From Syntrophomonas sp. (GTDB lineage: Bacteria > Bacillota > Syntrophomonadia > Syntrophomonadales > Syntrophomonadaceae): DNA of 64,000 bases. Below the pieces are notes generated by a model. It was not told where the DNA came from and did no database searches. It saw only the letters and a program-made list of their open reading frames with translations. Position numbers and translations under genes: made by a program. Below are positions 39,997 to 58,081 of the stretch, piece by piece; the stretch's first letter is position 1, and each line of letters begins with the position of its first letter. The stretch is from assembly GCA_016841875.1 (NCBI GenBank), contig JAENYG010000014.1:1-64000 (forward strand). The letters are read 5' to 3'.

Positions 39997-41841
39997 ATGT
40001 TTTACTGGTTTCGATTGTTAGGCTTAATAATAATAGATTCTGTTTTAGTCAACGTGGCACTCTATACCTCGTTGCTCCTGCGATTTGATGGATATATCAA
40101 TATCCCGGAGCAATTTATGAATGCCGCCTTATACCTCGCCCTCTGGTGGACTTTCATAGCACTGGCCAGCATGTGCTTCTTCAAGCTGTATAACCGGATG
40201 TGGCAGTATGCGAGTCTGGGTGAACTAAGTGGTGTAATAAAAGCGATCACCTCCAGTATGGCAGCCCTGGTAATTTTAATTTATCTGATCCCATTACCGT
40301 ATCTGCCTCGGAGTGTCTACATACTTACCTGGCTGTTCGCGGTAATATTGATCATTGGTTCCCGCCTTCTCTGGAGAATTACAAGAAACATTATTCTCAA
40401 AGGAGAAAGACAGGCAGCTAAAAGAACTTTGGTTGTAGGAGCTGGTGATGCAGGAGCCATGGTGGCTCGGGAACTAGAGCAGAATCATACTCTGGGCCTA
40501 CAGGCAGTAGGCTTTATAGATGATAATACATTAAAACAAAAGATGAGTATTTACGGCATTCCTGTTCTGGGGAGCCGACAGGACATACCCATGCTGGTTG
40601 ATAGTCACGACATTGAAGAAATTATCATTGCTATGCCATCAGCGGATGGAACAGTAATTCGAGATATATATAATATATGCCACCAAACTCGAATCAAAAC
40701 GAGAATCTTTTACGGTACTGATGAACTGCTTAATGGCAGACCTAAAATTAGAGAAATTGAACTGGAAGACCTGTTGCGTCGTAAAGCAGTTAATCTAAAT
40801 ATTGATGAAATAGCCGGGTACATAAATAATCGCAATATTATGATCAGTGGAGCAGGGGGATCTATTGGATCTGAATTGTGCAGACAAATCTGCCGATATG
40901 ATCCGGCTAAAATAATTCTGGTGGAAAACAGTGAAAATAACCTTTTTGAGATTAATAATGAATTAGGAGAAATGTTTCCAAGCTTAGATATTGAAGCAGA
41001 ACTATGTGATGTAAAAGACCGTAATAGATTACAGGAAGTATTTAAAATTGGCCGCCCACAAGTAGTGTTCCACGCCGCAGCCTACAAACATGTACCATTA
41101 ATGGAAAAACATCCGGGAGCAGCCATAAAGAATAATATCCTGGGGACTAAAAATATGGTAGAAATAGCAGACAAGGTGGGTGTGGACACTTTTATACTTA
41201 TTTCAACTGATAAGGCCGTTAATCCTACTAGTGTAATGGGAGCCAGCAAACGTATCGCGGAAATGGTAGTTCAGGATATTAATAGAAAGAGTAAGACTAA
41301 ATTCGCAGCAGTAAGATTTGGTAATGTTCTGGGGAGCAGAGGAAGTGTAGTTCCAACCTTTAAACAGCAAATAGCAAAAGGTGGTCCAGTTACCGTAACC
41401 CATGCAGACATGACCCGCTATTTTATGACTATACCGGAAGCGGTTCAATTGGTGATACAAGCGGGAGCTATTACCTCTGGAGGGGAAATTTTTATATTGG
41501 ATATGGGCAAACCGGTGAAAATAATTGATCTGGCCAGAGACATGATTCAGCTCTATGGCTATGAACCGGAGAAAGATATCGAAATAAAAATTACCGGGAT
41601 AAGGCCGGGAGAAAAGCTCTATGAAGAACTGTTTACCGCCTGTGAGCAAATGACAGCCACCCGGCATGAGAGAATATATGTAAGTGAAACAAGTGAACAT
41701 TTAACGGATAATATTATTGATAAAATAGAGAATGTGTATAATCGAAATGTTTTTGTAAATAGAGGAGACGCAGTAGAATTAATAGGTATCATTTTACCGG
41801 AATATAAACATAATCGAAACCTGGATGTTATTAACAAATAG
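39997..41841 (+). CDS. Membrane-bound nucleotide-sugar 4,6-dehydratase (WbpM/PglF/CapD-like)
   Basis: A 614-residue protein of the long WbpM/PglF type, which converts UDP-GlcNAc to UDP-4-keto-6-deoxy sugars for bacillosamine- or QuiNAc-like residues. Four N-terminal helices (within residues 1-130) are followed by a CoA-binding-like Rossmann domain (TLVVGAGDAGAMVARELEQ, about 145-165) and the SDR domain with ISGAGGSIGSELCRQI (about 283-298) and the active-site region STDKAVNPTSVMGASKR, in which methionine replaces the usual tyrosine, as in this family. The ATG at 39997 follows CGGGGG. It is the last gene with host-like composition before the AT-rich island. Confidence 0.92.
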   Translation: MFYWFRLLGLIIIDSVLVNVALYTSLLLRFDGYINIPEQFMNAALYLALWWTFIALASMCFFKLYNRMWQYASLGELSGVIKAITSSMAALVILIYLIPLPYLPRSVYILTWLFAVILIIGSRLLWRITRNIILKGERQAAKRTLVVGAGDAGAMVARELEQNHTLGLQAVGFIDDNTLKQKMSIYGIPVLGSRQDIPMLVDSHDIEEIIIAMPSADGTVIRDIYNICHQTRIKTRIFYGTDELLNGRPKIREIELEDLLRRKAVNLNIDEIAGYINNRNIMISGAGGSIGSELCRQICRYDPAKIILVENSENNLFEINNELGEMFPSLDIEAELCDVKDRNRLQEVFKIGRPQVVFHAAAYKHVPLMEKHPGAAIKNNILGTKNMVEIADKVGVDTFILISTDKAVNPTSVMGASKRIAEMVVQDINRKSKTKFAAVRFGNVLGSRGSVVPTFKQQIAKGGPVTVTHADMTRYFMTIPEAVQLVIQAGAITSGGEIFILDMGKPVKIIDLARDMIQLYGYEPEKDIEIKITGIRPGEKLYEELFTACEQMTATRHERIYVSETSEHLTDNIIDKIENVYNRNVFVNRGDAVELIGIILPEYKHNRNLDVINK

Positions 41842-41853
41842 AAAGTTTATTAT

Positions 41854-42498
41854 TTGAGGGTGATTAAGATTTACTTAATTATTAAGAGAATGATTGATTT
41901 TATTCTTGCTTTGTTGGGTATGATAATTTTTTCCCCTGTGTTTCTGATTTTAATAATTGCAATTAAACTTGATTCTAAGGGACCTGTGTTTTTTAAACAA
42001 AAGCGAGTTGGAATTCACAAGACACACTTTAATATACTTAAATTTAGGACAATGAGCATTGATGCGCCGAAAGATACTCCGACTCATCTTCTTGGAAATC
42101 CAGAACAGTATATTACAAGAATTGGCAAATTACTACGAAAGACCAGCCTTGATGAGCTGCCGCAGGTTATCAATATACTCTGCGGAACCATGTCAATAAT
42201 CGGTCCCCGCCCTGCTTTATGGAATCAATACGACTTGATAAAAGAAAGAGACAAGTATGGTGCCAATAATGTGCCGGTAGGACTTACAGGATGGGCACAG
42301 ATCAATGGTAGAGATGAACTCCCTATTGAAGCGAAAGCAAAGCTGGATGGGGAATATGTTAAGAAGATGGGGTTTATGATGGATGCGAAGTGTTGCTTTG
42401 GGACTATATTTAGTGTCTTGAAAAGTGACGGGGTTATTGAAGGCGGGACTGGTGCATTGGAGCATAAAGAGACTGCTGATGAAAATAAGGAAGTCTGA
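41854..42498 (+). CDS. Initiating sugar transferase (short, WcaJ/PglC-like)
   Basis: A monotopic phosphoglycosyl transferase of about 200-214 residues that moves a sugar phosphate to undecaprenyl phosphate to start the repeat unit. It has one membrane hairpin (IDFILALLGMIIFSPVFLILII) and the signatures GPVFFKQKRVG, FNILKFRTM, TRIGKLLRKTSLDELPQ and SIIGPRPAL. The start is unclear: TTG at 41854 has no ribosome site, while GAGGGTG at 41856-41862 is ideally placed for an in-frame ATT at 41869, which would give the usual (M)YLIIKRMIDF opening; ATG at 41890 is the next choice. It is the second initiating transferase in the window besides TagO. Confidence 0.9.
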   Translation: MRVIKIYLIIKRMIDFILALLGMIIFSPVFLILIIAIKLDSKGPVFFKQKRVGIHKTHFNILKFRTMSIDAPKDTPTHLLGNPEQYITRIGKLLRKTSLDELPQVINILCGTMSIIGPRPALWNQYDLIKERDKYGANNVPVGLTGWAQINGRDELPIEAKAKLDGEYVKKMGFMMDAKCCFGTIFSVLKSDGVIEGGTGALEHKETADENKEV

Positions 42499-42519
42499 GT
42501 AAAGAGAGTAGTATATAAG

Positions 42520-43362
42520 GTGAAAAAAATTATTATAACAGGAGCAAATAGTTATATAGGAATGTCTTTTGAAAAATGGATATCCAAACATTCAGATAGG
42601 TACTATGTTGATAATGTGGATATGACAGAAGGAACATGGAAACAACATTCCTTCACCGGTTACGATGTGGTCTTTCATGTGGCTGGGATAGCTCACATTA
42701 AAGAGATAAAGGAAAACCAGAATTTCTACTATAAAGTGAACAGAGATCTGGCTTATGAAACTGCACAGAAGGCTAAAGCAGATGGCGTTAAGCAGTTTGT
42801 TTTTTTGAGTTCGATGAGTGTATATGGCATTGAGAATGGGATCATTGATATGAACACACCACTGAAGCCCAACAATGCTTATGGCAAGTCAAAGCTTGAG
42901 GCAGAAGAGTTAATCAATAAGTTACAAGATGATTCATTTGTTGTAGCAACGTTAAGGCCACCCATGGTATATGGGAAGGGCTGCAGAGGGAACTATCCAA
43001 GATTAGCAGATCTAGCACTCAAGACGCCAATCTTTCCAAACATTGATAATAAACGCAGCATGATCTACATAGATAACTTATCTGAGTTTGTTAAGCTGTT
43101 AATTGACAACTGCATGAGCGGATTATTCTTCCCACAGAATGCTGAGTATGTTAATACAAGTGAGATGGTGAGGATGATTGCTGTAACTCATGGGAAGAAG
43201 TTGAGAATGACTAAGTTATTTAATCCCCTATCGAGATTACTGAATATAAGTACGGTGAATAAGGTATTTGGTGACCTGGTTTATGAGAAGAGTATGTCTA
43301 AGTATCAGAGTGATTATAGAGTTTGTGGTTTTAAAGAATCTATTCGACAAACAGAAATTTAA
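42520..43362 (+). CDS. NAD-dependent sugar epimerase/dehydratase (extended SDR)
   Basis: A 280-residue extended short-chain dehydrogenase acting on a nucleotide sugar. The dinucleotide motif ITGANSYIGMSFEKW is at residues 5-19, VVFHVAGIAHI follows, and the catalytic triad is Ser in FLSSMSVYG and Tyr-x3-Lys in AYGKSKLEAE. Specificity cannot be assigned; relatives in O-antigen clusters are 4-epimerases or 4-keto-reductases, and here it could complete the product of the WbpM-like dehydratase. The start is a GTG at 42520. Composition is AT-rich like the rest of the island. Confidence 0.88.
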   Translation: MKKIIITGANSYIGMSFEKWISKHSDRYYVDNVDMTEGTWKQHSFTGYDVVFHVAGIAHIKEIKENQNFYYKVNRDLAYETAQKAKADGVKQFVFLSSMSVYGIENGIIDMNTPLKPNNAYGKSKLEAEELINKLQDDSFVVATLRPPMVYGKGCRGNYPRLADLALKTPIFPNIDNKRSMIYIDNLSEFVKLLIDNCMSGLFFPQNAEYVNTSEMVRMIAVTHGKKLRMTKLFNPLSRLLNISTVNKVFGDLVYEKSMSKYQSDYRVCGFKESIRQTEI

Positions 43363-43382
43363 AGTGTAGCAAGGTAGATAGC

Positions 43383-44654
43383 ATGTGTAAAGAATTAAAC
43401 AAGAAGAATATTTGGATATTTCATCATTATGCAACACCTCCTACAATGAACGGGTTTACTCGTCCGTTCAACTTCGGAGTACATTTAGATAAAATTGGAT
43501 ATAATCTGAAGGTTTTTGTAGCCTCCTATTTGCATTTTTCTGACATTAACTTGATCGAGAATAACGAGTTGTATATTAATAATAACGAAACAGAGATTCC
43601 ATTTGTGTTTATTAAAACGCCATCCTTTTCAGGCAAAGGAAGAGTTTTAAATATGGTAGCTTATTATAGGAACTTGTTTAAAGTGACAAAAAAATTAGTT
43701 CAACAAGGTGAGAAACCAGATTTGATTATTGCGTCTTCACCACATCCTCTAGCAATGATTGCAGGGATAAAAATAGCAAATAAACTCAACATCCCATGTG
43801 TGTGTGAGGTGAGAGATTTTTGGCCAGAAGTATTTTTCATGGGAGGCAGATTAAAAGAAAACAGCATTATTGGGAGATTACTTCTGAAAGGTGAACACTG
43901 GATATATAAAAAAGCTGATGCTCTTATCTTCTTAAAAGAAGGAGATTACACGTATATAACAGATAAAAAATGGGATATTGCACAAGGTGGAGATATTGAC
44001 TTAGATAAATGCCACTATATAAATAATGGTGTTGACTTAAAATCTTTTAATGAGCAAATTGAAAATGATCAGTTGTTTGATGAAGATATAGAGAATACGG
44101 CATTCAATGTTGTATATGCAGGAGCTATCAGACCTGTTAATAGTGTCGGGAATATTTTAGATGCGGCAAAACTATTAATCGATAATAAAGAGTTTCAATT
44201 TTTAATTTTTGGAGATGGAAATCAACTTGAGATGCTAAAAAAGCGTGTTAAGGATGAAAATATCACAAATGTAAAGATGAAAGGTTATATAGACAAAAAG
44301 TTCATACCTTATGTCCTTAGCAAATCTTCAGTAAACATCTTGAATTATTCTCAAAGTAAATACAACTGGTCAAGAGGAAACAGTTCTAATAAGTTATTTG
44401 AATATATGGCTTCAGGAAAACCAATTATCTCAACTGTTAAAATGGGATATTCACCAATAGAGAAATATGCCTGTGGAGTCTCTCTTGAAGAGGATACTCC
44501 ACAGGCATTAGCAGAAGCTGTTTCGAAAATATTCAACATGTCTGATGATAGGTACAATGAAATTAGCGAGAATGCTAAACATGGTGCGAAAGACTTTGAT
44601 TATAAAGAACTTACTAAAAAGTTAATTTCAGTTATAGAGAGTCAACTATCATGA
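43383..44654 (+). CDS. Glycosyltransferase, GT4 family (WbuB-like)
   Basis: A 423-residue GT-B glycosyltransferase. The N-terminus WIFHHYATPPTMNGFTRPF resembles the WbuB group, which transfers N-acetyl-L-fucosamine. IIASSPHPLAMIAGI, CEVRDFWPEVFF, NNGVDLKSFNE, VVYAGAIRPVNSVGNILDAA and NSSNKLFEYMASGKPIIST are further GT4 landmarks. It ends four bases inside the start of the heparinase-like gene, which indicates tight coupling. WbuB-type transferases often use an amino sugar derived from a WbpM-like 4,6-dehydratase, as found at 39997, but the donor remains an inference. Confidence 0.88.
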   Translation: MCKELNKKNIWIFHHYATPPTMNGFTRPFNFGVHLDKIGYNLKVFVASYLHFSDINLIENNELYINNNETEIPFVFIKTPSFSGKGRVLNMVAYYRNLFKVTKKLVQQGEKPDLIIASSPHPLAMIAGIKIANKLNIPCVCEVRDFWPEVFFMGGRLKENSIIGRLLLKGEHWIYKKADALIFLKEGDYTYITDKKWDIAQGGDIDLDKCHYINNGVDLKSFNEQIENDQLFDEDIENTAFNVVYAGAIRPVNSVGNILDAAKLLIDNKEFQFLIFGDGNQLEMLKKRVKDENITNVKMKGYIDKKFIPYVLSKSSVNILNYSQSKYNWSRGNSSNKLFEYMASGKPIISTVKMGYSPIEKYACGVSLEEDTPQALAEAVSKIFNMSDDRYNEISENAKHGAKDFDYKELTKKLISVIESQLS

Positions 44655-46501
44655 TTAAAACACTTAAATCAGCACTAATAGAATATGGGTTAGATTGGAT
44701 TGTTAATAGAGGTCTTTACTCTGCAAAATTAAAAATGATGTCTTTAATCCCTGCCAGCGAAAAATTATTTGAGCGAAAAGTTAATATTAAACGTATTAAT
44801 ATTTTTGATTTTAATATAGAAGCGGTTAGTGATTTCCTATCTAGTCTGGATATTGAAAAGAAAAGAGAAATTATAAATATTGCAGACAAGGCTATTGATG
44901 GTGTTATTTTGGGTTTTTCATCTATAGATTTAGATTATGGGAATCCAATCAATTGGCATTTGAATCCACTCACTGGATTTGAGATTAAGAAAGAATTGAA
45001 GTGGTATATAATTCCAGACTTTGATGATAAAGTTGGGGACATAAAAGTAATCTGGGAAGCTTCAAGATTAACTCACTTTTTATACTTTTCGAGAGCCTAT
45101 CTTATGACTAAAGATAAAAGGTATTATCTAGCTTTTTCAGAACAGCTTAAAGACTGGATTGAAAATAATTTATATTCATATGGACCCAATTATAAATGTG
45201 GTCAAGAAGCGACCCTAAGAATGTTGAATGTTTTAATTTCATACGCGGTTTTCAATAATTTTAAATTAATTACAGAACATGATGAAAAGAATGTTGAGAA
45301 ACTGGTTCAAGGAAGTTATAAGAAAGTATTGTCCAATTTTTTTTATGCACACAAGTGCATAAAGAATAATCATACTTTTACAGAAATTCTTGGACTTATT
45401 GTTGGAGCTTGGTGCAGCGAAAATGAGAAGGCACTTCAGAAGTCATACAAATTAATGGATAGAGAAATAAGAAATCAATTTTTACCTGATGGCGGGTTTA
45501 CTCAATACTCGTTTAATTATCATAGATTTACGCTTCAAATCCTTGAGTGTTTATATAAAGTGAGCGAAAAAACTGGTTTTCATATAACAGAATCTGAAAG
45601 GGTAAAAAATAGCGTTCTATTACTTTATCAAGTACAAGCAGAAAATGGAGACGTCCCAAATTATGGCTCAAATGATGGAGCATTAATATTTCCTCTTTCT
45701 ACCTGTGGATATAGAGATTTTAGACCTGTATTGAATACTATGTATGCATTAATAACAGGGGAAAGACTCTATAACTATGGAGCTTATGATGAGGAATTAT
45801 TATGGTTCGGAGAATCAATAGATATCCCATTAGAGGATGTAACCCTAAAAAGCGTAGCTTTTAATGAATCAGGTTTTTATGTTTTACGCCATCAAGATGG
45901 GTTTCTAATGATATGTTTACAAAATTATGAATCTAGACCAGCACATATGGATCAGCTTCATATAGATCTTTGGCATAAAGGTATTAATATTTTGTGTGAT
46001 AGTGGTACTTACTCATATGCAAGTGAGTTAGGAAAAGAATTATCCTCAACTATAGGACATAATATTGTCAAATTACCGGAAGTAGAGCAGATGAATAAGA
46101 GAGGAGCTTTTCTTATTACTGACTGGACAAAAAGAGAATTTGCTGTTCATTCTGATAATGAGTTCAAAGGAAAAGTAAAATCTCAAAATGGTTACAGTCA
46201 TGAAAGAAAGATTAGTAGATTAAAAAGTGGCTATTTGATTGATGATATGGTGCAAGGTGAATCAGGAACTTGTATTTTTATTTTTCACACTCCTTGTGAG
46301 GTTAAAATTAAAGATGAAGGATTCATTTTATTATCGAACAATAAGGAAATAGCCTATGTAAAGATTAAAGGCGATATTAATATCGTAGAATCCTATAGAA
46401 GTCTTTATTATTTAAGAAAAGAGATAATCAACAGGGTCCAAGTTACTCAAGTATTTAATGATGGTATATGTAATGCTAAATATGAAATTATTTTACACTA
46501 A
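44651..46501 (+). CDS. Heparinase II/III-like (alginate-lyase-fold) protein
   Basis: A 616-residue protein of the heparinase II/III polysaccharide-lyase-like superfamily. The helical toroid (about residues 60-380) has INWHLNPLTGFEIKKELKW, NNHTFTEILGLIVGAW and DGGFTQYSFNYHRF; the C-terminal beta-sandwich (about 390-610) has YESRPAHMDQLHIDLWHKG and LCDSGTYSY. His/Tyr/Asn groups of the lyase centre appear present (NNH, NYHRF, HMDQLHID). There is no signal peptide, so it would act in the cytoplasm unless exported otherwise. Such genes are common in surface-polysaccharide clusters, and their role there is not settled. Confidence 0.85.
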   Translation: MIKTLKSALIEYGLDWIVNRGLYSAKLKMMSLIPASEKLFERKVNIKRINIFDFNIEAVSDFLSSLDIEKKREIINIADKAIDGVILGFSSIDLDYGNPINWHLNPLTGFEIKKELKWYIIPDFDDKVGDIKVIWEASRLTHFLYFSRAYLMTKDKRYYLAFSEQLKDWIENNLYSYGPNYKCGQEATLRMLNVLISYAVFNNFKLITEHDEKNVEKLVQGSYKKVLSNFFYAHKCIKNNHTFTEILGLIVGAWCSENEKALQKSYKLMDREIRNQFLPDGGFTQYSFNYHRFTLQILECLYKVSEKTGFHITESERVKNSVLLLYQVQAENGDVPNYGSNDGALIFPLSTCGYRDFRPVLNTMYALITGERLYNYGAYDEELLWFGESIDIPLEDVTLKSVAFNESGFYVLRHQDGFLMICLQNYESRPAHMDQLHIDLWHKGINILCDSGTYSYASELGKELSSTIGHNIVKLPEVEQMNKRGAFLITDWTKREFAVHSDNEFKGKVKSQNGYSHERKISRLKSGYLIDDMVQGESGTCIFIFHTPCEVKIKDEGFILLSNNKEIAYVKIKGDINIVESYRSLYYLRKEIINRVQVTQVFNDGICNAKYEIILH

Positions 46502-46529
46502 CCTATTTTTATGAAGGAAGGATAAGAAA

Positions 46530-47747
46530 ATGATCAATGTTATAGGATTGGGGTATATTGGACTCCCAACCGCATTAATGTTTGCAAAAAGCGGTATTGA
46601 AATTGTAGGTACTGATCATAGCGAAAAACTCGTCGATACATTGACTAAAGGGATGATTACTTTTGAAGAAGAGGGATTAGAAGACCTTTTTAATGACGCG
46701 ATAGAAAACGGAATAAAATTTTCAACAGAATACCAGAAGACTGACACATATATTATCGCAGTTCCGACACCGTATATTAATTCGAGTAAAAAACTAGATC
46801 CTAAATATGTAATATCTGCGGTTAATTCTATTTTAGATGTATGCGAAAGAGGATCGACATTGATTATTGAATCAACTATTTCACCCGGGTCGATTGATAA
46901 ATATATTAGACCAGAAATTGAAAAGCGCGGAATGACTAAAGAAGATGTTCATCTAGTGCATGCTCCGGAAAGAATAATTCCAGGAAATATGATATATGAG
47001 CTGGAACATAACTCAAGAACTGTTGGTGCAGATGATCCTGTTATTGGTGAAAAAGTTAAAGAGCTATACTCAAGTTTTTGCAAATCAGAAATCGTCGTTA
47101 CTGATATTAGATCAGCAGAAATGTCTAAAGTCGTAGAAAACACGTATAGAGATGTTAATATTGCATTTGCAAATGAATTAGCGAAAATTTGTCGGGCCGA
47201 TAATGTGGATGTATATGAAATCATACGCATTGCCAATAAACATCCTAGAGTAAATATTCTTCAACCTGGTCCGGGAGTAGGTGGTCACTGTATCTCAGTC
47301 GATCCATGGTTTCTTGTGGGGGATTATCCAGATTTGACAAATTTGATACTTACTGCTAGAAAAATCAATGATTCTATGCCTACTCATGTTTTAGGCAGAA
47401 TTAGAGATATTATGCGAGAACATAATATCATTGATATCTCAAAGATAGGAATTTATGGGCTTGCTTACAAAGAAAATGTAGATGATACAAGAGAAAGTCC
47501 AACACTTCAACTACTGGAAAAAATGGACGAGCATTTGGCTTTTGGAGTTAAAGTATATGATCCTTTTATTAAAGAAAGAATAGTGGATCATCAATACCTG
47601 AGCTTTGAGGATTTCTTGAACGAAATCGAAATACTAGTAATTATTACAGCTCATGATCACATTAAGAAAAATGTGGAAATGATAAAAGACAAAATTATTT
47701 TAGATACCAAAAATATCTGTAATTTTGATGGTGTTTATAAATTATAA
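46530..47747 (+). CDS. wecC: UDP-N-acetyl-D-mannosamine dehydrogenase-like protein
   Basis: A 405-residue nucleotide-sugar 6-dehydrogenase of the WecC branch. It has the N-terminal VIGLGYIGLPTALMFAK, ESTISPGSID, VHAPERIIPGNM, EMSKVVENTYRDVNIAFANE and the catalytic cysteine in GPGVGGHCISVDPWF. The last motif (HCISVDPWF) is characteristic of UDP-ManNAc dehydrogenases. The ATG follows GAAGGAAGG. Its natural partner, the UDP-GlcNAc 2-epimerase WecB, is present directly downstream only as a broken remnant, so substrate supply must come from another copy in the genome, or the enzyme now uses another sugar. Confidence 0.9.
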   Translation: MINVIGLGYIGLPTALMFAKSGIEIVGTDHSEKLVDTLTKGMITFEEEGLEDLFNDAIENGIKFSTEYQKTDTYIIAVPTPYINSSKKLDPKYVISAVNSILDVCERGSTLIIESTISPGSIDKYIRPEIEKRGMTKEDVHLVHAPERIIPGNMIYELEHNSRTVGADDPVIGEKVKELYSSFCKSEIVVTDIRSAEMSKVVENTYRDVNIAFANELAKICRADNVDVYEIIRIANKHPRVNILQPGPGVGGHCISVDPWFLVGDYPDLTNLILTARKINDSMPTHVLGRIRDIMREHNIIDISKIGIYGLAYKENVDDTRESPTLQLLEKMDEHLAFGVKVYDPFIKERIVDHQYLSFEDFLNEIEILVIITAHDHIKKNVEMIKDKIILDTKNICNFDGVYKL

Positions 47748-47769
47748 TTGGACTTGTTATAGAAAGCGG

Positions 47770-47926
47770 ATAAAAATGTCCCCGTGGTGAAAGGAGTTAA
47801 AAACAGAGAAAAACTCGAAACAATAGTTTGTTTGCATAAAAGGTCAACAGAGAGATGAATTGGATCAAGATGCAACTGCATTTGATGTGGAGCCAGATGT
47901 AGTATTAGTACACGGGTGACTCTTCC
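47770..47926 (+). pseudogene. wecB: wecB (UDP-GlcNAc 2-epimerase) remnant
   Basis: Three short collinear pieces of a WecB N-terminal half lie in different frames directly after wecC. They are IKMSP at 47770-47784, VVKGVKNREKLETIVC from 47784 (frame shifted by one), a QQRDELDQ-like piece near 47844-47868, and FDVEPDVVLVHG ending at 47916, followed after one extra base by DSS. They match the family segments IKMAPVV, REKFETIVC, QHREMLDQ and PDVVLVHGDT. About 60 residues between the third and fourth piece are deleted, and the catalytic C-terminal half is gone. The gene is dead. Confidence 0.85.
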
Positions 47927-48033
47927 ATAGTATTCGTTAACCACATTATCATGTTTTTATCTTCAAACTCCGATTGAAACAATCAGGAGGAGAATGTTTG
48001 CGCGTATGATATTTATACATTTGGAGGGTATTT

Positions 48034-49233
48034 ATGAATAAAGCATTCTTGGCATATCAGTATGGAATGGCTAATGCAGGAGATTTTGCCATAAATATCG
48101 GCAGTTTAGACCTGTTAGATGAATTTTATGATGCTATAACTATAGTCTCAAAACTTACAGCTAATGATAAAGAATATATTAGAAATATGGAGTATTTGAG
48201 AAAATATTATCCGGATTTCGATATAATACAGGGTCCCTTTAACTTAAACAGAGGGAATATTTTCACTACTTTGAAAAGTTATCTGATTGGTTCGCTTAAA
48301 TATCCTGTACTGCTAAACAATGGGAAGTACAATAATGCTGTTAAGAATTCAAATATGTTATTTTTAAATGGAGGTAATATTTTAAGATGTGAGAGCTTAA
48401 CTGATTACATTAGGTTATATGCATTGTTATTTCCATTACGATTAGCAAGGAAACACAATTTGGATTATATCTTACTTCCACAATCGACTACATCTATTAA
48501 TAGAAAAGGTATCAAATTGTTAGAGCCGTTTTTAAATAAAGCGAAAATCGTTTTTGCCAGAGAAGATATTAGTTACAAGAAACTAAAAACAAATTTTCCA
48601 AATTCAAATATTGTTAATTCTTTAGATAGCGCTTTTTTTATTAAAGATAGAAAAATGCCTGGAAGTGATTATGAAATAAAATATCATTTTTTAGCTGTTA
48701 AGAAAAGAAATGTGTGCATTGCTTTAAGAAAAGAGGATTTAGGTGATATTGGAGAATTAAGTGATGAAAAAAAACAAAAAATTGAAACAGCAATAAATAA
48801 TCTTGCCAATGAATTGCTGAATAACGACTTCTCGCTAACATTTGTGGTGCAAACAAAAAAAGATAAGGATTTTACGCAAAAAATATATAAGCAATTCGAA
48901 ATTAATTCTGAGGTAATGATAATAGAAGAATATGATCCTTTGGTATTGAGAGAAATCTACAGAAATTCTCTTTGTCTATTTGGTATGCGGTTACATTCTA
49001 TGATTTTAGCAATGTCTGTCGGGACACCTGTAGTGGGATATTTTGATCAAAATTGGGGTAATAAGAATTCTGGTACTCTTGGTCAATTTGGTATGCCATA
49101 TGTATATATTGACCAAGATGTGGATCTCTATCCACTTTTTGAAGAGGCTCAGATTAATAAAGAGAGAATGGTTATTGGAATAGAGAACTCGAAGAAAAAT
49201 TTTTTAAATATCCTTAATCAACATATTACATAA
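48034..49233 (+). CDS. Polysaccharide pyruvyltransferase-family protein
   Basis: A 399-residue protein of the PS_pyruv_trans family. It begins FLAYQYGMANAGDFAINIGSLDLL, matching the N-AGD motif of the family, followed by FLNGGNILRCES, YILLPQSTTSINRKG, VFAREDISYKKL and FGMRLHSMILAMSVGTPVVGY. The family either pyruvylates sugars with phosphoenolpyruvate or has diverged to other transfers. It has an excellent GGAGGG ribosome site before the ATG. It lies between the wecB remnant and the Wzy-like gene. The acceptor is unknown. Confidence 0.85.
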   Translation: MNKAFLAYQYGMANAGDFAINIGSLDLLDEFYDAITIVSKLTANDKEYIRNMEYLRKYYPDFDIIQGPFNLNRGNIFTTLKSYLIGSLKYPVLLNNGKYNNAVKNSNMLFLNGGNILRCESLTDYIRLYALLFPLRLARKHNLDYILLPQSTTSINRKGIKLLEPFLNKAKIVFAREDISYKKLKTNFPNSNIVNSLDSAFFIKDRKMPGSDYEIKYHFLAVKKRNVCIALRKEDLGDIGELSDEKKQKIETAINNLANELLNNDFSLTFVVQTKKDKDFTQKIYKQFEINSEVMIIEEYDPLVLREIYRNSLCLFGMRLHSMILAMSVGTPVVGYFDQNWGNKNSGTLGQFGMPYVYIDQDVDLYPLFEEAQINKERMVIGIENSKKNFLNILNQHIT

Positions 49234-49268
49234 TTCCCTTAATTAGGTTGATCGAAGGAAGTGTAATT

Positions 49269-50543
49269 ATGCAATTAATTTTTGTTATTATTAGTATTCT
49301 AGGATTAACGTATTTTCTGTTTAAAAAAAGAACTTTTGATTTTTTTTCAATTGCATATTTCTCTTCGATAGCATATTTTTTGCCTGGATTTTTTGGATTC
49401 ATTAGAAATTTTCCTTTAAGATATCCAACGATGATTGTTGATAAAACTTATTTAGTTATGATACTAGTGCTTACTTCTATACTTGTTAGTAGTCTTATTT
49501 ATGATATTAATTCTCGTAAGTCTAAAAAGAATAAGAAATTGAATTTTAGTATAAAACGAACTGATCGAATTTTAGAAATTGCAGCAATAATAGCGATTGT
49601 ATCAGCATTATTAGTATTAGCAACTGCAGGAAGTTCAATTCATTCTTTAGACAAGACAGAAGCAGTTTCTTCACTTAATAGATTTAGTATTCTAATGAAA
49701 TTTTCTGCATCGTATGGATTAGTATTAGCATATTTAAACAAAAATAAAAAATACATAATGGTATTTTTTTTAGTCTTGTTATTTGATGTTTACATCGGTT
49801 ACCGTAGTGACTTTGCAATAGCCATAATAACCATTATAACGATTTCCTTGTATGGAAAAGGACCTCAAAGACTCCTGGTTAGTAATTTTAAGAAAGCAGC
49901 CTTAGGAGGGGGCTTAGCCTTCTTTTTCTTTATAAGCAAGCCAATATTTCAGGCCATTAAGAGGCTTGATTTCACATATTTGAAAACTAATTTGACTAGT
50001 ATTGATTGGTATTTTATGAAGATAACAACTTCTGAACCTTTCACAACCCAATCAATATTGAATGAAGTTTTAATTAAAGATTTCCGTGTCGGAATGGAAC
50101 ACTTGGGAACTCTTATTTATTTAGTGATAATCGGAGGGTCAAGCTTAGGTGCTAACCCTGTTACCTTTTATGATTTGTTTCATGAAGCTTTGTTCCATTC
50201 AACAGGAATGGCAAGTAATATTTGGGCGGAGATGTATAGCAGTGGTGGCTGGATATTACTATTATTTTTCGTGATATTATTTAACCTGGTAATATACATT
50301 GGAAATAGATTATTGAATGTAAAGGACCATAATATAAAATCCTTTGTAGCACTTAATCTTACCTTTTGGGCCTTTTATATTCATAGAAATGATTTTTTTA
50401 GTCAATTAGTTAGACACAGAAGAATATTGTTTATATTTATTGTTCTAACTGGATTATCAATACTGTTGTCAAAAAAGGCCAGACAGAAGGAAGATTATAA
50501 TGGAGAGAAAAAGAATTATATTGATGACAAGAACATTGGGTAA
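49269..50543 (+). CDS. O-antigen polymerase-like membrane protein (Wzy candidate)
   Basis: A protein of about 424 residues with ten or more predicted helices and low sequence conservation, as usual for Wzy proteins. Points of interest are an arginine-bearing periplasmic-type loop (YLKTNLTSIDWYFMKITTSEPF) and FHSTGMASNIWAEMYSSGGW, which resembles the loop of oligosaccharide repeat-unit polymerases. I choose the ATG at 49269 with AAGGAAG upstream; a TTG at 49248 has no clear site. It overlaps the next glycosyltransferase gene by 44 bases, so the two are translationally coupled. The Wzy call rests on topology and the neighbouring Wzx gene. Confidence 0.7.
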   Translation: MQLIFVIISILGLTYFLFKKRTFDFFSIAYFSSIAYFLPGFFGFIRNFPLRYPTMIVDKTYLVMILVLTSILVSSLIYDINSRKSKKNKKLNFSIKRTDRILEIAAIIAIVSALLVLATAGSSIHSLDKTEAVSSLNRFSILMKFSASYGLVLAYLNKNKKYIMVFFLVLLFDVYIGYRSDFAIAIITIITISLYGKGPQRLLVSNFKKAALGGGLAFFFFISKPIFQAIKRLDFTYLKTNLTSIDWYFMKITTSEPFTTQSILNEVLIKDFRVGMEHLGTLIYLVIIGGSSLGANPVTFYDLFHEALFHSTGMASNIWAEMYSSGGWILLLFFVILFNLVIYIGNRLLNVKDHNIKSFVALNLTFWAFYIHRNDFFSQLVRHRRILFIFIVLTGLSILLSKKARQKEDYNGEKKNYIDDKNIG

Positions 50544-51687
50544 TGGCGGTGCTGAAAGAGTTGTTTCTGTACTAGGAAATGAATTTAATCAAAAATACAA
50601 ATTGTTTCTTGTCTTATTTGATGCAAGTAAAAATGATTATACTAGCTCTGGTGACTTGATTGATCTGAAGTCAAATAATAAAAAAAAGAATTTTGTAACT
50701 AGGTTTTATACTGTTTTTGATAGAGTTAAAAAGGTAAAACTGATTAAACGTGAACAAAATATTGAAACTAGTATTAGTTTTTTGGAAGGACCTAATATTG
50801 TTAATTTAATGACCCCTAAAAATAATAAAATTATTTTATCGATAAGGAATTATAAAAGTGAACAGAATAAAGGGTTATTAGGACTTTTATCTACGCTTAG
50901 TATAAAAATATTTTATAACAGGGCGAATATTATAGTAGTACCTTCTAAATTAATGTATCTTGATCTAATTGAAAATTTCCATATCAAAAAGAATAAAGTC
51001 AAAGTAATCTATAACCCTTATGAGATTAAAAAGATTAGCGTTAAGAGTTTAGAAAATTTGGATTCTAAAATACTTGAAATAATACAAGATAATAAAGTGT
51101 TAATAAATGTTGGGAGTCTATCTACCCAAAAAGGTCAGGAGTATTTGGTAAGAATATTTAAAAAAGTTAAGGCTGAAATCAACAATATTAAACTCTTAAT
51201 TATTGGAAAAGGACATTTAGAGGGTAAGCTTAAATATTTAGTAAAAGAAGAAGGATTAGAAGAAGATGTGATTTTTTTTGGCTTCCAGGACAATCCTTTC
51301 AAGTTTATTTCGCATGCAGACTTATTTGTATTTCCATCATTATTTGAGGGTTTTCCGAATGCATTGGTAGAAGCGATGGCGTGCAAAAAAGCTGTCATAG
51401 CTGCTGATTGCAAATCTGGGCCACGCGAGATATTATCTCCAGATTCTGATATTAAGAAGATTACTGATAAAATAATATATGCTGAATATGGTGTATTAGC
51501 ACCAGTGTTCCGACCAGGGGTAGATTCTAATTTAGAAATAAACAATAAAATTTTAGAATGGACAGAAGGAATAGTAGAATTGTTAAATAATGACAAGAAA
51601 AGAAAGGAATATGAAGAATTATCATTTGTTAGAGCGCTTGACTTCGATGTTAAAAAAATAATAAAAAATTGGGAAGAAATTATTTAG
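50500..51687 (+). CDS. Glycosyltransferase, GT4 family
   Basis: A 395-residue glycosyltransferase with the N-terminal TRTLGNGGAERVVSVLGNE (the glycine-rich acceptor loop), LINVGSLSTQKGQEYLVRIF, LLIIGKG.LEG, ISHADLFVFPSLFEGFPNALVEAMACKKAVIAADCKSGPREIL in outline, with the donor E-x7-E motif. The ATG at 50500 has AGGAAG upstream and lies inside the 3' end of the polymerase gene. It is similar to WbnK/WbaZ-like enzymes of O-antigen clusters. It probably adds one sugar of the repeat unit. Confidence 0.9.
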   Translation: MERKRIILMTRTLGNGGAERVVSVLGNEFNQKYKLFLVLFDASKNDYTSSGDLIDLKSNNKKKNFVTRFYTVFDRVKKVKLIKREQNIETSISFLEGPNIVNLMTPKNNKIILSIRNYKSEQNKGLLGLLSTLSIKIFYNRANIIVVPSKLMYLDLIENFHIKKNKVKVIYNPYEIKKISVKSLENLDSKILEIIQDNKVLINVGSLSTQKGQEYLVRIFKKVKAEINNIKLLIIGKGHLEGKLKYLVKEEGLEEDVIFFGFQDNPFKFISHADLFVFPSLFEGFPNALVEAMACKKAVIAADCKSGPREILSPDSDIKKITDKIIYAEYGVLAPVFRPGVDSNLEINNKILEWTEGIVELLNNDKKRKEYEELSFVRALDFDVKKIIKNWEEII

Positions 51688-51702
51688 AAACGATGGTGAA
51701 AC

Positions 51703-52980
51703 ATGAAAAACAACTCTAATAGTAAATACAAAAGAATAATAAAAAATCCATATATTTCCACAATGATTACAAAATTATTCTTTGTACTATTGGGGTTAGT
51801 TAACGCGGTATTAATTAATAGGTATTTAGGACCTACACTAAAGGGTCAATATTCGGTTATTTTAAATAGCGTAAATTTAGTTGTACTTGTACTAAATTTA
51901 GGAATATATCAATCATACCCATATATAAAAAAAAAATATGGTAATGATAACCTAAAAGATCAATATATTAATATAGTTTTTTTTCAAGCTGTTGTGTATT
52001 TGATGGCCTCCCTGATTATTTCAATAATAGTTAGAAAATATGAATGGACTATTATCTTAACATTAGCTCCTATAATGATTTTAACCAGACAATTAAGTTT
52101 TATTACATTAATTGAGAAAATCCATTTACGTAATTTGATTAACTCATTCAATTCTTTTATATATACTCTTATTTTATTGATTTTTGTATTGTTTACAGAA
52201 TCGAATTATATGTTTATTATTTCATCTCTTTATATAAAAGATATCATATTTATAGTAATGATAATTTTGGCCTTTAAGTTAAAACCAAAGATTTTTAAGG
52301 TAGAAAAGCAAGTACTAATGTCGTCTATTCGCTATGGATTCTTGCCAATGATCACATTACTCTTGATTGATTTGAATTATAAAGTAGATGTAATAATAAT
52401 GAACTTTTATGTATCTGATTATGTAATTGGGATTTATAGTATAGGTGTACTACTGGCAGAAAAAGTCTGGATTGCGAGTGATGTATTTAAGGAGGTTTTA
52501 TTTTCCAAAAGCGCAAGAGAAAATGTAACAAAAGAATTCACAATAGCAATTAAATTTAACATATATTTCAGCATCTTAATGTTAGCATTCATACTTATTG
52601 CTGGAAAATTTATAATAAAACTTTTATTTGGTATTGCTTTTATTGAGGCATATCAAGTTACGACCATAATTTTTGCAGGAATTTCTGGTATGGCGATATA
52701 CAAAGTGATTTATCCGTATTATATTTCAAATGGTTATCAAATGAAAGCTTTAATGTATTTGACAATAACCAGTTTCTCTAATATATTATTGAATTTTATA
52801 CTGATTCCTACATTGGGGATCAATGGAGCTGCTATAGCTTCGGTATTTTCGTATAATTTGTGTGGTATATTATTTTTGATTAATTTTAAGAAACTTGAGA
52901 CATTGAGATTTTCAGAATTTTTTTGCTTTAATAAGCAAGATATGGATATGGTGAAAGGAATAATAAGGAGAATTTTATAA
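51703..52980 (+). CDS. Oligosaccharide flippase (Wzx-like, MOP superfamily)
   Basis: A 425-residue polytopic membrane protein with 12 or so helices, starting with a hydrophilic N-terminus followed by STMITKLFFVLLGLVNAVLINRYLGP and LVNLGIYQSYPYI-like motifs of the polysaccharide-transport family. It flips the undecaprenyl-linked repeat unit to the outer face, where Wzy polymerises it. The stop overlaps the start of the next gene by one base (TAATGG). It completes a Wzx/Wzy/Wzz set with the polymerase candidate at 49269 and the Wzz-like gene at 35637. Confidence 0.88.
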   Translation: MKNNSNSKYKRIIKNPYISTMITKLFFVLLGLVNAVLINRYLGPTLKGQYSVILNSVNLVVLVLNLGIYQSYPYIKKKYGNDNLKDQYINIVFFQAVVYLMASLIISIIVRKYEWTIILTLAPIMILTRQLSFITLIEKIHLRNLINSFNSFIYTLILLIFVLFTESNYMFIISSLYIKDIIFIVMIILAFKLKPKIFKVEKQVLMSSIRYGFLPMITLLLIDLNYKVDVIIMNFYVSDYVIGIYSIGVLLAEKVWIASDVFKEVLFSKSARENVTKEFTIAIKFNIYFSILMLAFILIAGKFIIKLLFGIAFIEAYQVTTIIFAGISGMAIYKVIYPYYISNGYQMKALMYLTITSFSNILLNFILIPTLGINGAAIASVFSYNLCGILFLINFKKLETLRFSEFFCFNKQDMDMVKGIIRRIL

Positions 52981-54185
52981 TGGAGATTCAAGAAAGAAAT
53001 ATTTCAATGCAATTTTTATTTGATAAACATAAATCCGGAAGACAAAATTATTCAATAGGCAAAGAAGTGCCTAAAGTAAGATGGGAATTTAGTACTAGAG
53101 GATATCCTTATCGTGGGCCTGAGTCAACAGCTGTTTTTGATGGATATGGTAATATTTATTTTGGTAGCCATGATGGGTGCATATACTCGATAACAAAAGA
53201 CGGGAAGCTAAGATGGATGTTTAAAACTGATAAAAAAATTTACTCAAGCCCAACGTTATATAAAGATTACGTTGTATTTGCTGGTGGTGATGGATATTTA
53301 TATTGCTTTAATTTAGAAGGAGATGTTAACTGGGTTTATGATATTTCAAAGGGATATCGAGGTTTAAATTTAAAGAATATAATAAATCGGTTAATTACAA
53401 TACATAAAACATACGATTATAATCGAAAGAAAGTGTGGGATATTAAGTGTTGGGCATCTCCTTATGTTGATAACGATACGGTATATATAGTAGGCTATGG
53501 AATTGGATTGAACGCTGTAGATATTCAGACCGGAAGTAGAAAGTGGACATACGATTTAGGTTCACCAAGATTTCATTTAACAGGAATTGTTGAGGATAAT
53601 AATGATAGGTTGTATGTCTGCTCCCAAAGAAGAAACTTACATTGTATAAGTAAAGATGGCCACTTACTTTGGAAAAAAGCTCTTAAAAAGGATTATGATA
53701 TATGGGGTAATCCAACTTTTGATTTGGAAAAAGAATTGATATATTTGAGCCAAAGTAATAAAGAAAGAGATAGTATTATTTATGCAATAGATACTAATGG
53801 AAATATATCCTGGAGTAAGAAATTAAAAACGGCAGTAAGAGGTTCAATTTCAATATCATCTGAGAATTACGTAGTGGTCTTAGGTTTTGATGGAGTTGTG
53901 TATTTCCTAAATAAGGATACTGGAGAAATTCAGTACAAAGAAAGGTTTTCATCTGCATCAAGAGCCTTGTGGACAACAGCAAGTATTGATTCCAATGGAA
54001 ATATATTATTTACAACAAAGGAATCGAATACGGAAGGGGCATTAATTGCTTTAGATAAAAATGGAGGTTTATTATGGAAATATAAGCAATTAGGTAAGGC
54101 CCTGTCTACACCTGTAGTTGATGATAAGGGTAATATATATGTAGGATCTTGGAAAGGAAAGTATTTATGTCTAAGAACAAAGTAG
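52980..54185 (+). CDS. PQQ-type beta-propeller repeat protein (no signal peptide)
   Basis: A 401-residue protein made almost wholly of repeated blades of the PQQ/outer-membrane BamB type. Repeats such as GNIYFGSHDGCIYSITKDG, DGYLYCFNLEGDVNWVYD, LHCISKDGHLLWKK and GNIYVGSWKGKYLCL recur every 40-50 residues, each with the tryptophan and the G-x-L/I-x-A/S spacing of the fold; six to eight blades are plausible. There is no signal peptide or membrane helix, so it appears cytoplasmic, unlike most such proteins. It is coupled to wzx upstream (one-base overlap) and to the next gene. A scaffold or regulatory role is possible; no function can be assigned. Confidence 0.8.
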   Translation: MEIQERNISMQFLFDKHKSGRQNYSIGKEVPKVRWEFSTRGYPYRGPESTAVFDGYGNIYFGSHDGCIYSITKDGKLRWMFKTDKKIYSSPTLYKDYVVFAGGDGYLYCFNLEGDVNWVYDISKGYRGLNLKNIINRLITIHKTYDYNRKKVWDIKCWASPYVDNDTVYIVGYGIGLNAVDIQTGSRKWTYDLGSPRFHLTGIVEDNNDRLYVCSQRRNLHCISKDGHLLWKKALKKDYDIWGNPTFDLEKELIYLSQSNKERDSIIYAIDTNGNISWSKKLKTAVRGSISISSENYVVVLGFDGVVYFLNKDTGEIQYKERFSSASRALWTTASIDSNGNILFTTKESNTEGALIALDKNGGLLWKYKQLGKALSTPVVDDKGNIYVGSWKGKYLCLRTK

Positions 54186-55354
54186 TAAAAAAGGATTCAA
54201 AAAAAGTAGGGATATTGTCATTTCATAGAACAATTAATTATGGATCATTTTTACAAAATTATTGTTTGCAAAAAGCCCTTCAGGACAAAATAGATGCCAG
54301 AATAGAAACGATAGACTATAACCTGGTTGGAATGGAGAGAAGAAGAAAAACAGACATAATAAACAGAAATCTAAGTATAATTCCCAAACAGCTAAAAAAA
54401 TATTTTGTATTTAATAGATTTTTAGTTAACTATTTGGATTTATCCAAGGACAAGCTAATTACAGATTCCTATAAACTGGCGACTGAATTTATCAATAGAA
54501 ATAATTATGATGTGGTAATCGTGGGAAGTGATGAAGTATGGAAGGTAACTGAACAAAGAGGATTTCCGAATATTTATTGGTTAAATAAAAACATTAACGC
54601 AATAAAGATGAGCTATGCTGCCAGTGCAAATAAATCTTCCAGGCTCATTGATGAATTATCAAAAGACGAAAAAAATTTTATATTAGAGACCCTGGAATCA
54701 TACACATATATTGGAGTTAGAGACCATTACACTTACAATCAGTTAAAAAAATTAAATACAAAATGGAATTTAAATTTTAATCCAGATCCAACATTTATGC
54801 ATGAAAGCAAGTTGGATGTCAGAGATAAATTGGTTTCACGTTTAAAGAAAAAATATAATATTAATTTCAATAAAAAAATCATTGGATTGATGACTTCTGA
54901 TAAGTTCGTAGGGAAGTTTATCAGTGAAAAATATGGTGATGAGTATGAAATTATTTCATTTCACGTTAAAAATAAATATGCTCATACTTTTGTTTATGAT
55001 TTAAATCCGTTTGAATTCGCAGAAATATTTTCTATATTATCATTGGCATTAACATCTTTTTTTCACGGGTCATTGTTTTCTATCGTAAATAATATCCCAT
55101 TTATATCGATTGAAAGTAATGAATTGTATAAAAAATATCAGAGTAAAATTGAGGATTTATTATTAAACTTTGATTTGGATGAAAATTATTTTTATTTAGA
55201 CGATAAATTCGATTATGAAAGATTTTACAGCAGAGTAGAAGCACACTTAAATTATGAAACCAATAGTAATTACGAAACAATTATAAAATATAGTCAAAAT
55301 GAGTTTAATAAATTTGCTGATAATTTGAGGAGAATTCTTTATGAAACCGAGTGA
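54167..55354 (+). CDS. Polysaccharide pyruvyltransferase-family protein
   Basis: A 395-residue protein of the PS_pyruv_trans family, second in the island and third in the window. The N-terminus GILSFHRTINYGSFLQNYCL is the family motif, followed by DVVIVGSDEVWKVT, SYAASANKSS, IGVRDHYTYNQL and ALTSFFHGSLFSIVNNIPFI. I choose the ATG at 54167 with AAAGGAAAG upstream; the TTG at 54149 precedes it. It overlaps the propeller gene by 19 bases and the next glycosyltransferase by 14 bases. The substrate is unknown; this branch may act on a sugar of the repeat unit. Confidence 0.85.
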   Translation: MSKNKVVKKDSKKVGILSFHRTINYGSFLQNYCLQKALQDKIDARIETIDYNLVGMERRRKTDIINRNLSIIPKQLKKYFVFNRFLVNYLDLSKDKLITDSYKLATEFINRNNYDVVIVGSDEVWKVTEQRGFPNIYWLNKNINAIKMSYAASANKSSRLIDELSKDEKNFILETLESYTYIGVRDHYTYNQLKKLNTKWNLNFNPDPTFMHESKLDVRDKLVSRLKKKYNINFNKKIIGLMTSDKFVGKFISEKYGDEYEIISFHVKNKYAHTFVYDLNPFEFAEIFSILSLALTSFFHGSLFSIVNNIPFISIESNELYKKYQSKIEDLLLNFDLDENYFYLDDKFDYERFYSRVEAHLNYETNSNYETIIKYSQNEFNKFADNLRRILYETE

Positions 55355-56402
55355 AAAGACTAAACCAGTATTGTTTATTGGTCCAGTGTCCCCTCCAATT
55401 TCTGGACCAGGAATTAAAAATAGAAATATGATAGATGAAATGAAAAAAATGGGAATTAATATCTATGTTATTAACACTATAAATTGGAAAAAAAGAATAT
55501 TCGTGTTTTTATTCAAAATAGTTTTTAATAAATATGACAGAGTAATTCTTTCGGTATCAGCTAATGGAAGATGGTTAACAACACCAATTCTATGGGTGAA
55601 AAGTTTACTATTTCAAGATTTTAAATATGTTGTTATTCCAGCAGGAGGAGGACTTTACAAAGATTTAACTGACAGCAATATATTAAAACAAAACTTAGAG
55701 CTGTTATTTCTTAGTAAGGCAGATGTTATCTTTGCTCAAACAAAAGAGCTTACACATAATCTGAAAAAGATTAAACGACTTAATAAAATAATGTATTTCC
55801 CAAATTTCAAGAAAAAAGTTGTAATTGAAAAAAAAGATGTTAATAATAAAAGTTTTAGAATTGTTTTCGCTTCAAGAGTGAAAAAAACAAAAGGCGTTGA
55901 ACTAGCAATTGAAGCCATTAATGATCTTATTATTGAAGAGAATATTAAGATAACATTTGATATCTATGGCCCTATTCAAAAAGGTTATGAAGAAAATTTT
56001 TTAGAATTCATAAACCGATATAAATTTGTTGATTATAAAGGCATTCTAGAACCAGAGACTATAAGTGATGTAATATCTGCATATAATCTCTTCTTATTTC
56101 CAACATATTGGGAAAACGAAGGCTTCCCAGGTGTTCTGCTTGACGCCTATATTGCTGAACTGCCAGTAGTTGCATCGGATTGGTGTTATAATAGCGAAAT
56201 TGTAAAAAATAAGGAAAATGGATATATATTCAAACCAAGAGATAAAAATGACTTAAAGAAAAAAATTCTTTATTGTTATAATAATCCTGAAATTCTTAAA
56301 CAAATGAGTTACCGTAATAAAGAAGAAGCAAAGGCTTTTTTTTCGGATATTGTTGTAGGCAATTTAGTTGATGAATTAAATTATATGGATTGGAATATTT
56401 GA
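55341..56402 (+). CDS. Glycosyltransferase, GT4 family
   Basis: A 353-residue glycosyltransferase beginning with an acceptor-side SPPISGPGIKNRNMIDEM motif, then YVVIPAGGGLYKDL, ADVIFAQTKELTHN, IVFASRVKKTKGVELAIEAI, FDIYGPI, and the donor region FLFPTYWENEGFPGVLLDAYIAELPVVASDW with the E-x7-D/E pattern. The ATG at 55341 is preceded by GAGGAGAATTC. It overlaps the genes on both sides (TATGA-type junctions), so the island is read as one tightly packed transcript from 48034 to 59091. Confidence 0.88.
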   Translation: MKPSEKTKPVLFIGPVSPPISGPGIKNRNMIDEMKKMGINIYVINTINWKKRIFVFLFKIVFNKYDRVILSVSANGRWLTTPILWVKSLLFQDFKYVVIPAGGGLYKDLTDSNILKQNLELLFLSKADVIFAQTKELTHNLKKIKRLNKIMYFPNFKKKVVIEKKDVNNKSFRIVFASRVKKTKGVELAIEAINDLIIEENIKITFDIYGPIQKGYEENFLEFINRYKFVDYKGILEPETISDVISAYNLFLFPTYWENEGFPGVLLDAYIAELPVVASDWCYNSEIVKNKENGYIFKPRDKNDLKKKILYCYNNPEILKQMSYRNKEEAKAFFSDIVVGNLVDELNYMDWNI

Positions 56403-56404
56403 TA

Positions 56405-58081
56405 ATGAATATGTGTGATTCTATGAAGGATGAGTTAAAAATCTCAAAATTAGTAGCATACTTTCTTTTCTTATTTGGGATATTCTTCATATTGTATCAG
56501 GTTTTTGATTTTAATAATTTTCAACTTGAAGGCATTATTAATGTTAAAAACTATGGGGTTAAAGGAGATGGAATTACCGATGATTGGGATGCATTGCAGG
56601 ATATAATTAATAAAGCACCAGAAGGAAGTATTATATATTTCCCCAATAGTGATGGAAATTATCTTATATCAAAGCCTCTGTGTCTAAAATCAGATATTAC
56701 TATTCAAGCAGAAAAAAATGTATTTATTGAAAGTATATCAACCATTAAAGAAATGAAATATATTTTTTTAGGGGATGAAATTGAAAATATTACAATAAAA
56801 GATATTGGATTAACAAAAATGAATAATGATAGTTCAACAATTAAATTTCGTAATAGTTCTCATATTATGATTGATGATATCGTAATAAAAAATGAAGATC
56901 CTAAAGATAGCGAACCTCTTTATTCGCAAGGGATTTCGTTATTAGAAACAAATAACGTCAAAATATTAAATTCTCATTTTATTAATACACGGGGTCATTG
57001 TATTGTAGTCGGAACATTTACACAAAATCCATCAGGAGAATGCGAGAACATTCAAATTTTAAATAATACTTTTGAGGATTATGGAAGAGATGAAGGGAGT
57101 GGCATGGCAATTGATATATCAGGAGGATATGAAGCTGATGATATTTTTTATGTAAAGGATGTTGTAATATCAAATAATATCTTTAAAAATGGTCAAGGTA
57201 ATGGAGTTAAATTACAATTATGTGAAAATGTGATATTTTCCAATAATATTATTGATCGAAACAATGGAACCTCATTGATTATAAATGCACAGAACAAACC
57301 TATTAACAATATTTCTTGTTACGATAATATAATAACTAATAGTGAAATTGGAATAGGAATATTATACTTTTCTTTAAATGAAGATGCACAATCTATTATT
57401 ATCAAAGATAATATTATTAAGAACAATGTTTATGCCAACATTTTTATAAAAAATGCAGGTGGCAAAGTAATAATTGATAATAATTGTTTGGATAATCATA
57501 AAAACAACTATTCTATTGTCTTTGAGGAGACATATAGTGATAAAGGTGAATACCATATTACGGCTAATGATATAGTCGCAGAGAAAATAGGAGTATTGGG
57601 AATACCATATAAATTGAAATTATCTGATAATGAAATTAATGCAAATTCCCGAGGTGTAAAAGGTGATATAGAGGAGCACAAAGGAATACACACCAATCAG
57701 ATCATTGTTAGTGATAACATATTTAAAGGTAGTTCATCAATACCATTTTATATTAGAAAAGAAAATATTGATGAAATTTATTTAACCGACAATTTCTTTG
57801 AACAAAGCATATCAGCACCAAGTTGTATATTTATTAGAAAACCATATGACGATCAAGATGTTAACACGATTATGAAAATCGGAATTATTGAGAACAATAT
57901 ACTTTTACCTAATAATATGACATATGGAATACAATTAGAGTTAGATAATTTATCTTTATCATATGCAAGCATTAAGAATAATAAAATAATGGCATGTTCT
58001 AAAGATATTATTGAAGAAAATGATTGTTTTGATATAGATGGAAATATAACTTTACACACTAAAGAGGAGATACAACAATGA
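56405..58081 (+). CDS. Right-handed beta-helix protein, pectate-lyase superfamily
   Basis: A protein of about 558 residues with one N-terminal helix ([19 protein letters not shown], about residues 16-34) that acts as a signal anchor. The mature part starts with [20 protein letters not shown], the standard opening of the pectate-lyase/glycosyl-hydrolase-28-like family, and continues as parallel beta-helix turns with many NN- and II-type ladder residues ([25 protein letters not shown]). Such proteins in exopolysaccharide clusters are lyases or C5-epimerases; the active-site residues cannot be fixed here. The ATG at 56405 is my choice; a TTG at 56390 overlaps the preceding gene. Confidence 0.85.

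Follow-up and report, generated by a model that had tools for sequence, protein, structure and literature searches.

In S. aureus, we take cap5O and cap5P to adjoin each other in the capsule locus, with Cap5O presumably acting as a UDP-ManNAc dehydrogenase. Cap5P, the 2-epimerase of that locus, and the housekeeping MnaA overlap in function (PMC4856313). The locus described here lies in a stretch of 64,000 nt from Syntrophomonas sp. (contig JAENYG010000014.1, positions 1 to 64,000, forward strand; hereafter the window), where wecC is followed by the remains of a wecB.

A wecB remnant behind wecC

The features of the locus are:

42520–46501, + strand: NAD-epimerase, GT4 and heparinase-like genes, which likewise precede wecC–wecB in a related locus (L030)
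46530–47747, + strand: wecC, an intact NDP-sugar dehydrogenase gene (405 aa) whose closest solved relative is Cap5O
47763–47886, + strand: wecB remnant, WecB codons 9–48 (L024 numbering), with several small indels; contains IKMSP, REKLETIVC and QQRDELDQ
47886–47887, + strand: point at which about 33 codons (99 nt) have been deleted internally, WecB codons 49–81, the exact ends being ambiguous
47887–47975, + strand: wecB remnant, WecB codons 82–110, in three frames (VEPDVVLVH / GDSSIVFV / TTLSCFYLQTPI)
47978–48019, + strand: weak last block, perhaps WecB codons 111–124, after which about 235 codons are missing
48034–49233, + strand: the gene that follows in the operon, a member of the polysaccharide pyruvyl transferase family

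The decayed wecB occupies about 47763–48019, within a gap of 286 nt between wecC and the next gene. This is the only long gap of the operon (39997–58081), whose other intergenic distances run from -44 to +28 nt, and it holds no + strand ORF of at least 50 aa among the listed ORFs. With blastn, wecBs standing directly 3′ of wecC in other genomes match it in two blocks, 47770–47898 (72.5% identity to L030, E 7e-18) and 47860–48016 (67% identity to L032, E 1e-13).

A purpose-written, frameshift-tolerant protein-to-DNA alignment was also used, with 500 dinucleotide shuffles per WecB as its null. The L024 WecB scores 197.9, which none of the 500 shuffles reach (mean 39.4, sd 5.9, max 62.8), and four intact WecBs score from 175.9 to 197.9 against shuffle maxima of 58.0 to 69.1. 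The alignment has 83 columns, 48 of them identical, and covers codons 9–48, a 33-codon gap, codons 82–110 (ending in the third block, TTLSCFYLQTPI, at 47940–47975) and weakly 111–124, a fourth block which ends within 15 nt of the next gene. At most about a quarter of WecB's 359 codons are kept. Collinear similarity beyond chance to WecB, the non-hydrolysing UDP-GlcNAc 2-epimerase (PF02350), is present in the form of a pseudogene; the open frame of about 360 codons that a working member of the family needs is absent, and nothing aligns past codon 124.

On 69 firmly aligned codons, we compared the remnant with seven intact genes, and those genes among themselves. Its pN is 0.21–0.27 per site against 0.013–0.103 between intact wecBs, a sign of relaxed constraint, and because the best-matching frames were chosen, the remnant's value is an underestimate. 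Synonymous sites are near saturation, so the decay is undatable.

The original prediction had placed a dead wecB at 47770–47926. The remnant does lie there, but that interval is too short, missing about 90 nt on the 3′ side. All five peptides it named (the three in the first block, PDVVLVHG and DSS) are present and collinear, with shifted frames, and the alignment with WecB that it proposed gives similarity beyond chance. Its claim that the gene is dead is borne out by the indels, the 33-codon deletion, the loss of about two thirds of the protein and the strongly raised nonsynonymous change. Judged by these lesions, the stretch is a non-functional wecB pseudogene.

Origin of the locus

When 48 WecB-family proteins were scored against the remnant, the best were those of L029 (198.9), L024 (197.9) and L031 (195.9), all linked to close relatives of the window's WecC; the genome's own housekeeping WecB scored 120.1, and its other two paralogues 44.7 and 32.8. 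Much the same set, L030, L024, L029 and L031, makes up the nearest neighbours of the window's WecC in its tree. The gene order in L030 is glycosyl-phosphotransferase, NAD-epimerase, GT4, heparinase-like gene, wecC and intact wecB, so the order before the pair is that of the window. Because the remnant is closest to wecBs behind near relatives of the window's wecC, and given the L030 gene order, an original wecC–wecB pair is likely to have been the ancestral state.

G+C content is 30.5% across 42520–56402 and 43.9% across 1–30000 of the window. WecC of the window's type occurs in one of the 63 genomes surveyed from the class, and in 7 of 398 sampled from the phylum (E 1e-150, the window's own genome counted). 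By composition and distribution, the polysaccharide cassette is foreign and would have been horizontally acquired.

The operon looks biosynthetic, and a heparinase/alginate-lyase-like protein is encoded directly before wecC (44651–46501), as it is at L007 3882–5741 and in many related loci. It also contains a BamB/PQQ-like beta-propeller protein (PF13360; 52980–54185), ahead of a pyruvyl-transferase family gene.

State and probable substrate of WecC

The wecC gene has no stop, and against ten relatives its pN is 0.066–0.123 at a pS of 0.67–0.84. Its product carries PF03721, PF00984 and PF03720, the three Pfam domains of the UDP-glucose/GDP-mannose dehydrogenase family. It also has the motif GPGVGGHC, which we take to surround the catalytic Cys and which occurs in all 37 WecC rows of our alignment, the window's included. 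Of the 199 positions at which at least 95% of 36 relatives agree, it departs at 2, and no column of the 37-row alignment splits WecCs with a decayed wecB from those with an intact one at the thresholds used.

Cap5O (3ojl) is the best PDB match. The best equivalog match is NCBI's NF008286 (UDP-ManNAc dehydrogenase), at 360.9 bits; this is below the cut-off of 459, so the substrate is not certified by that model. The protein is 84–89% identical to several WecCs that keep a linked wecB, and UDP-ManNAc provided in trans is most likely still its substrate.

Other wecB copies in the genome

The draft genome (90 contigs) has four PF02350 genes. A search for another wecB, as the original prediction had advised, found two other intact WecB-type genes, one on contig C29 and one at C90:82885–84012, on the window's own contig. 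The latter is found in 5 of 5 genus genomes, with relatives 82–93% identical, and therefore behaves as a housekeeping gene. The C29 copy sits right behind a wecC 84% identical to the window's, and this pair also resembles the window in having GT4 and heparinase-like genes upstream; it differs in that wecC and wecB are both open, and the WecC tree sets the C29 WecC apart. A DNA search of the same genome with the remnant turned up no second copy: apart from the remnant's own site, matches reached up to 31.9 bits. Downstream of the intact C29 wecC–wecB, the polysaccharide island carries a transposase pair (L007 10790–13068), which we take to be IS21-type.

The original prediction had left a choice between a wecB elsewhere and a changed substrate. 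With two other intact WecB-type genes, and a WecC that departs at so few conserved positions, the first is favoured and the second disfavoured: the dead gene is very probably compensated for by the spare wecB copies that the genome has at other sites. Its further suggestion, that the island is remodelled rather than freshly acquired, may or may not hold: the island is foreign and the decay looks old, but that decay may have occurred in a donor before transfer.

Recurrence in other wecC loci

A WecC search of the genome contigs gave 74 loci. L097 was left out (30% identity, another family) and the window added, and of the resulting 74 the 68 with at least 300 nt behind wecC form the survey base. 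An intact wecB stands directly behind wecC in 38 of the 68. Among the other 30, six have a decayed wecB there, one (L082) has an intact gene that runs off the end of its contig, three (L048, L079, L084) have an intact wecB 1.2–3.3 kb further on, two (L052, L078) have an intact wecB upstream, and 18 have none of these. As a control, the upstream stretches and reverse strands of the survey loci yielded the two intact upstream genes only and no fragment.

Besides the window, a dead wecB follows an intact wecC in Cytobacillus gottheilii (L041), Planomicrobium spp. (L049, L051), a Paenibacillus sp. (L025) and a Bacillota MAG (L026). The lesions of L041, L051 and L026 differ from the window's: the L051 copy has three stops but no indel, that of L041 several small frame lesions, and that of L026 five stops plus a deletion at codons 42–72, where the window's is at 49–81. 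For L025 and L049, the N-terminal block alone is trusted, longer alignments beyond it being noise. The window's copy is among the more eroded of the decayed copies compared. A possible remnant behind the wecC of L045 (score 116.5, shuffle max 89.4) had an unconvincing alignment and was not counted.

On the tree of 37 WecCs, the decayed state needs six changes for its six rows (bootstrap range 6–6), of which well-supported branches force three, and random labels are as low in 500 of 500 shuffles; this shows that the decayed rows do not cluster, rather than proving six events. A literature search, with supplements outside its scope, found no report of a decayed wecB beside wecC.

Two side observations come from these genomes. 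In L026 (8150–9355), L025 (7469–8785) and L027 (7790–9160), the decayed wecB, or the place where wecB is missing, is closely followed by a second gene for a nucleotide-sugar dehydrogenase. Further PF02350 fragments occur in the genomes of L032 (G030:C47:110836–111096) and L025 (G005:C22:180950–181159), which suggests that such islands commonly undergo decay of epimerase genes.

Redundancy was counted by hand, with any PF02350 gene that scored 380 bits or more at another place in the genome taken as a full-length wecB. Where wecC lacks an adjacent intact wecB, 22 of 23 genomes (the window's excluded) have a wecB elsewhere, the exception being a 1.6-Mb record (G012), and where the adjacent wecB is intact, 13 of 35 have a further one, a count that took in G032 (371.7 bits) and G498 (357.1 bits, gene cut by the contig end). 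Fisher's test gives p 5e-6 for groups that differ in phylogeny; within the close WecC group alone, the counts are 18/19 and 9/13 and the difference is not significant (p 0.13). Loci with an intact linked wecB nearby (L048, L052, L078, L079, L084) were searched but left out of the group without an adjacent wecB, L063, whose locus ends in a partial WecB frame, was kept, and L059, L060, L064 and L082 were outside the search. These counts fit, without proving it, the view that WecC depends on a wecB at another site when none is linked to it.

An indirect comparison in 30 genomes gave no support to the idea that wecB decays more than wecC. Broken genes made up 5 of 67 for PF02350 and 5 of 102 for sugar dehydrogenases (p 0.52), where 102 is a hand tally among the matches listed (recount 101) and contig-edge epimerase pieces were dropped. 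The shares are alike and do not show wecB to be any more fragile than the genes around it.

Proposed explanation and alternatives

Going by sequence, we consider it quite probable that a redundant linked wecB decayed in an acquired cassette and that WecC draws on UDP-ManNAc made elsewhere. The wecB would once have been the partner of wecC in a polysaccharide cassette that arrived by horizontal transfer. With a housekeeping WecB already providing the cell with UDP-ManNAc, the linked copy would have been redundant; frameshifts and deletions would then have built up in it and its distal two thirds would have disappeared, while the intact WecC would keep oxidising UDP-ManNAc from another WecB. We infer both the redundancy as the cause of decay and the substrate of WecC. 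Loss of the linked wecB might even be repeatedly favoured, not merely tolerated, after such a cassette enters hosts with a housekeeping WecB (e.g., by avoiding over-drawing of UDP-GlcNAc), and the six decayed copies with their differing lesions would be its trace, but we regard this as distinctly unlikely.

A remnant of this kind would also be left if WecC had switched to another substrate (e.g., UDP-GlcNAc or UDP-GalNAc), so that the epimerase was no longer needed and decayed. The sub-threshold NF008286 score points the same way, with the qualification that relatives with an intact pair lay outside the scoring on that model. Such a switch is nevertheless unlikely, since so few conserved positions depart, no alignment column separates WecCs by the state of their wecB, and close identity is shared with WecCs that keep a linked wecB. 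A sequencing or assembly error in a living wecB, for which the draft state of the genome is the one point in favour, is practically negligible, because the gene carries several distinct indels and a deletion of 99 nt, is heavily substituted and has lost about two thirds of its length.

Two further alternatives concern the remnant itself. It has persisted through heavy substitution in the operon's sole long gap, as it might if retained after recruitment to another function, for instance as a leader or regulatory spacer ahead of the downstream genes; we think this very unlikely, as there is no excess of promoters (2 promoter-like sites against 2.8 expected), there are 0 terminators, and no Rfam family scores above its gathering cut-off in 47600–48100, where the best match, a weak one to a CRISPR repeat (23.8 bits against 37), was taken as chance. 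Since the genome has other wecB copies, the fragment could instead have been inserted by recombination from one of them, but its position and orientation are those of the intact wecB in relatives, whose wecBs it resembles most, making insertion highly improbable. Decay of a redundant linked wecB remains our preferred explanation.

Comparison with known systems

Since spare copies very probably cover for the lost gene and similar losses are seen in other bacteria, this case is ordinary gene decay, part of the birth-and-death of sugar-nucleotide genes, to which its recurrence in other loci is a modest addition. What it settles is a point of annotation: the epimerase missing from the island is accounted for by a dead duplicate, so there is no need to rule out ManNAcA synthesis when predicting the polymer. 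As six wecC loci show, islands of the capsule type can lose a gene for a precursor that the host is able to provide. The arrangement is like that of S. aureus, where cap5O–cap5P and the chromosomal mnaA also combine adjoining UDP-ManNAc dehydrogenase and 2-epimerase genes with a second, housekeeping 2-epimerase; however, cap5P is a working gene, whereas the linked epimerase gene of the window is dead.
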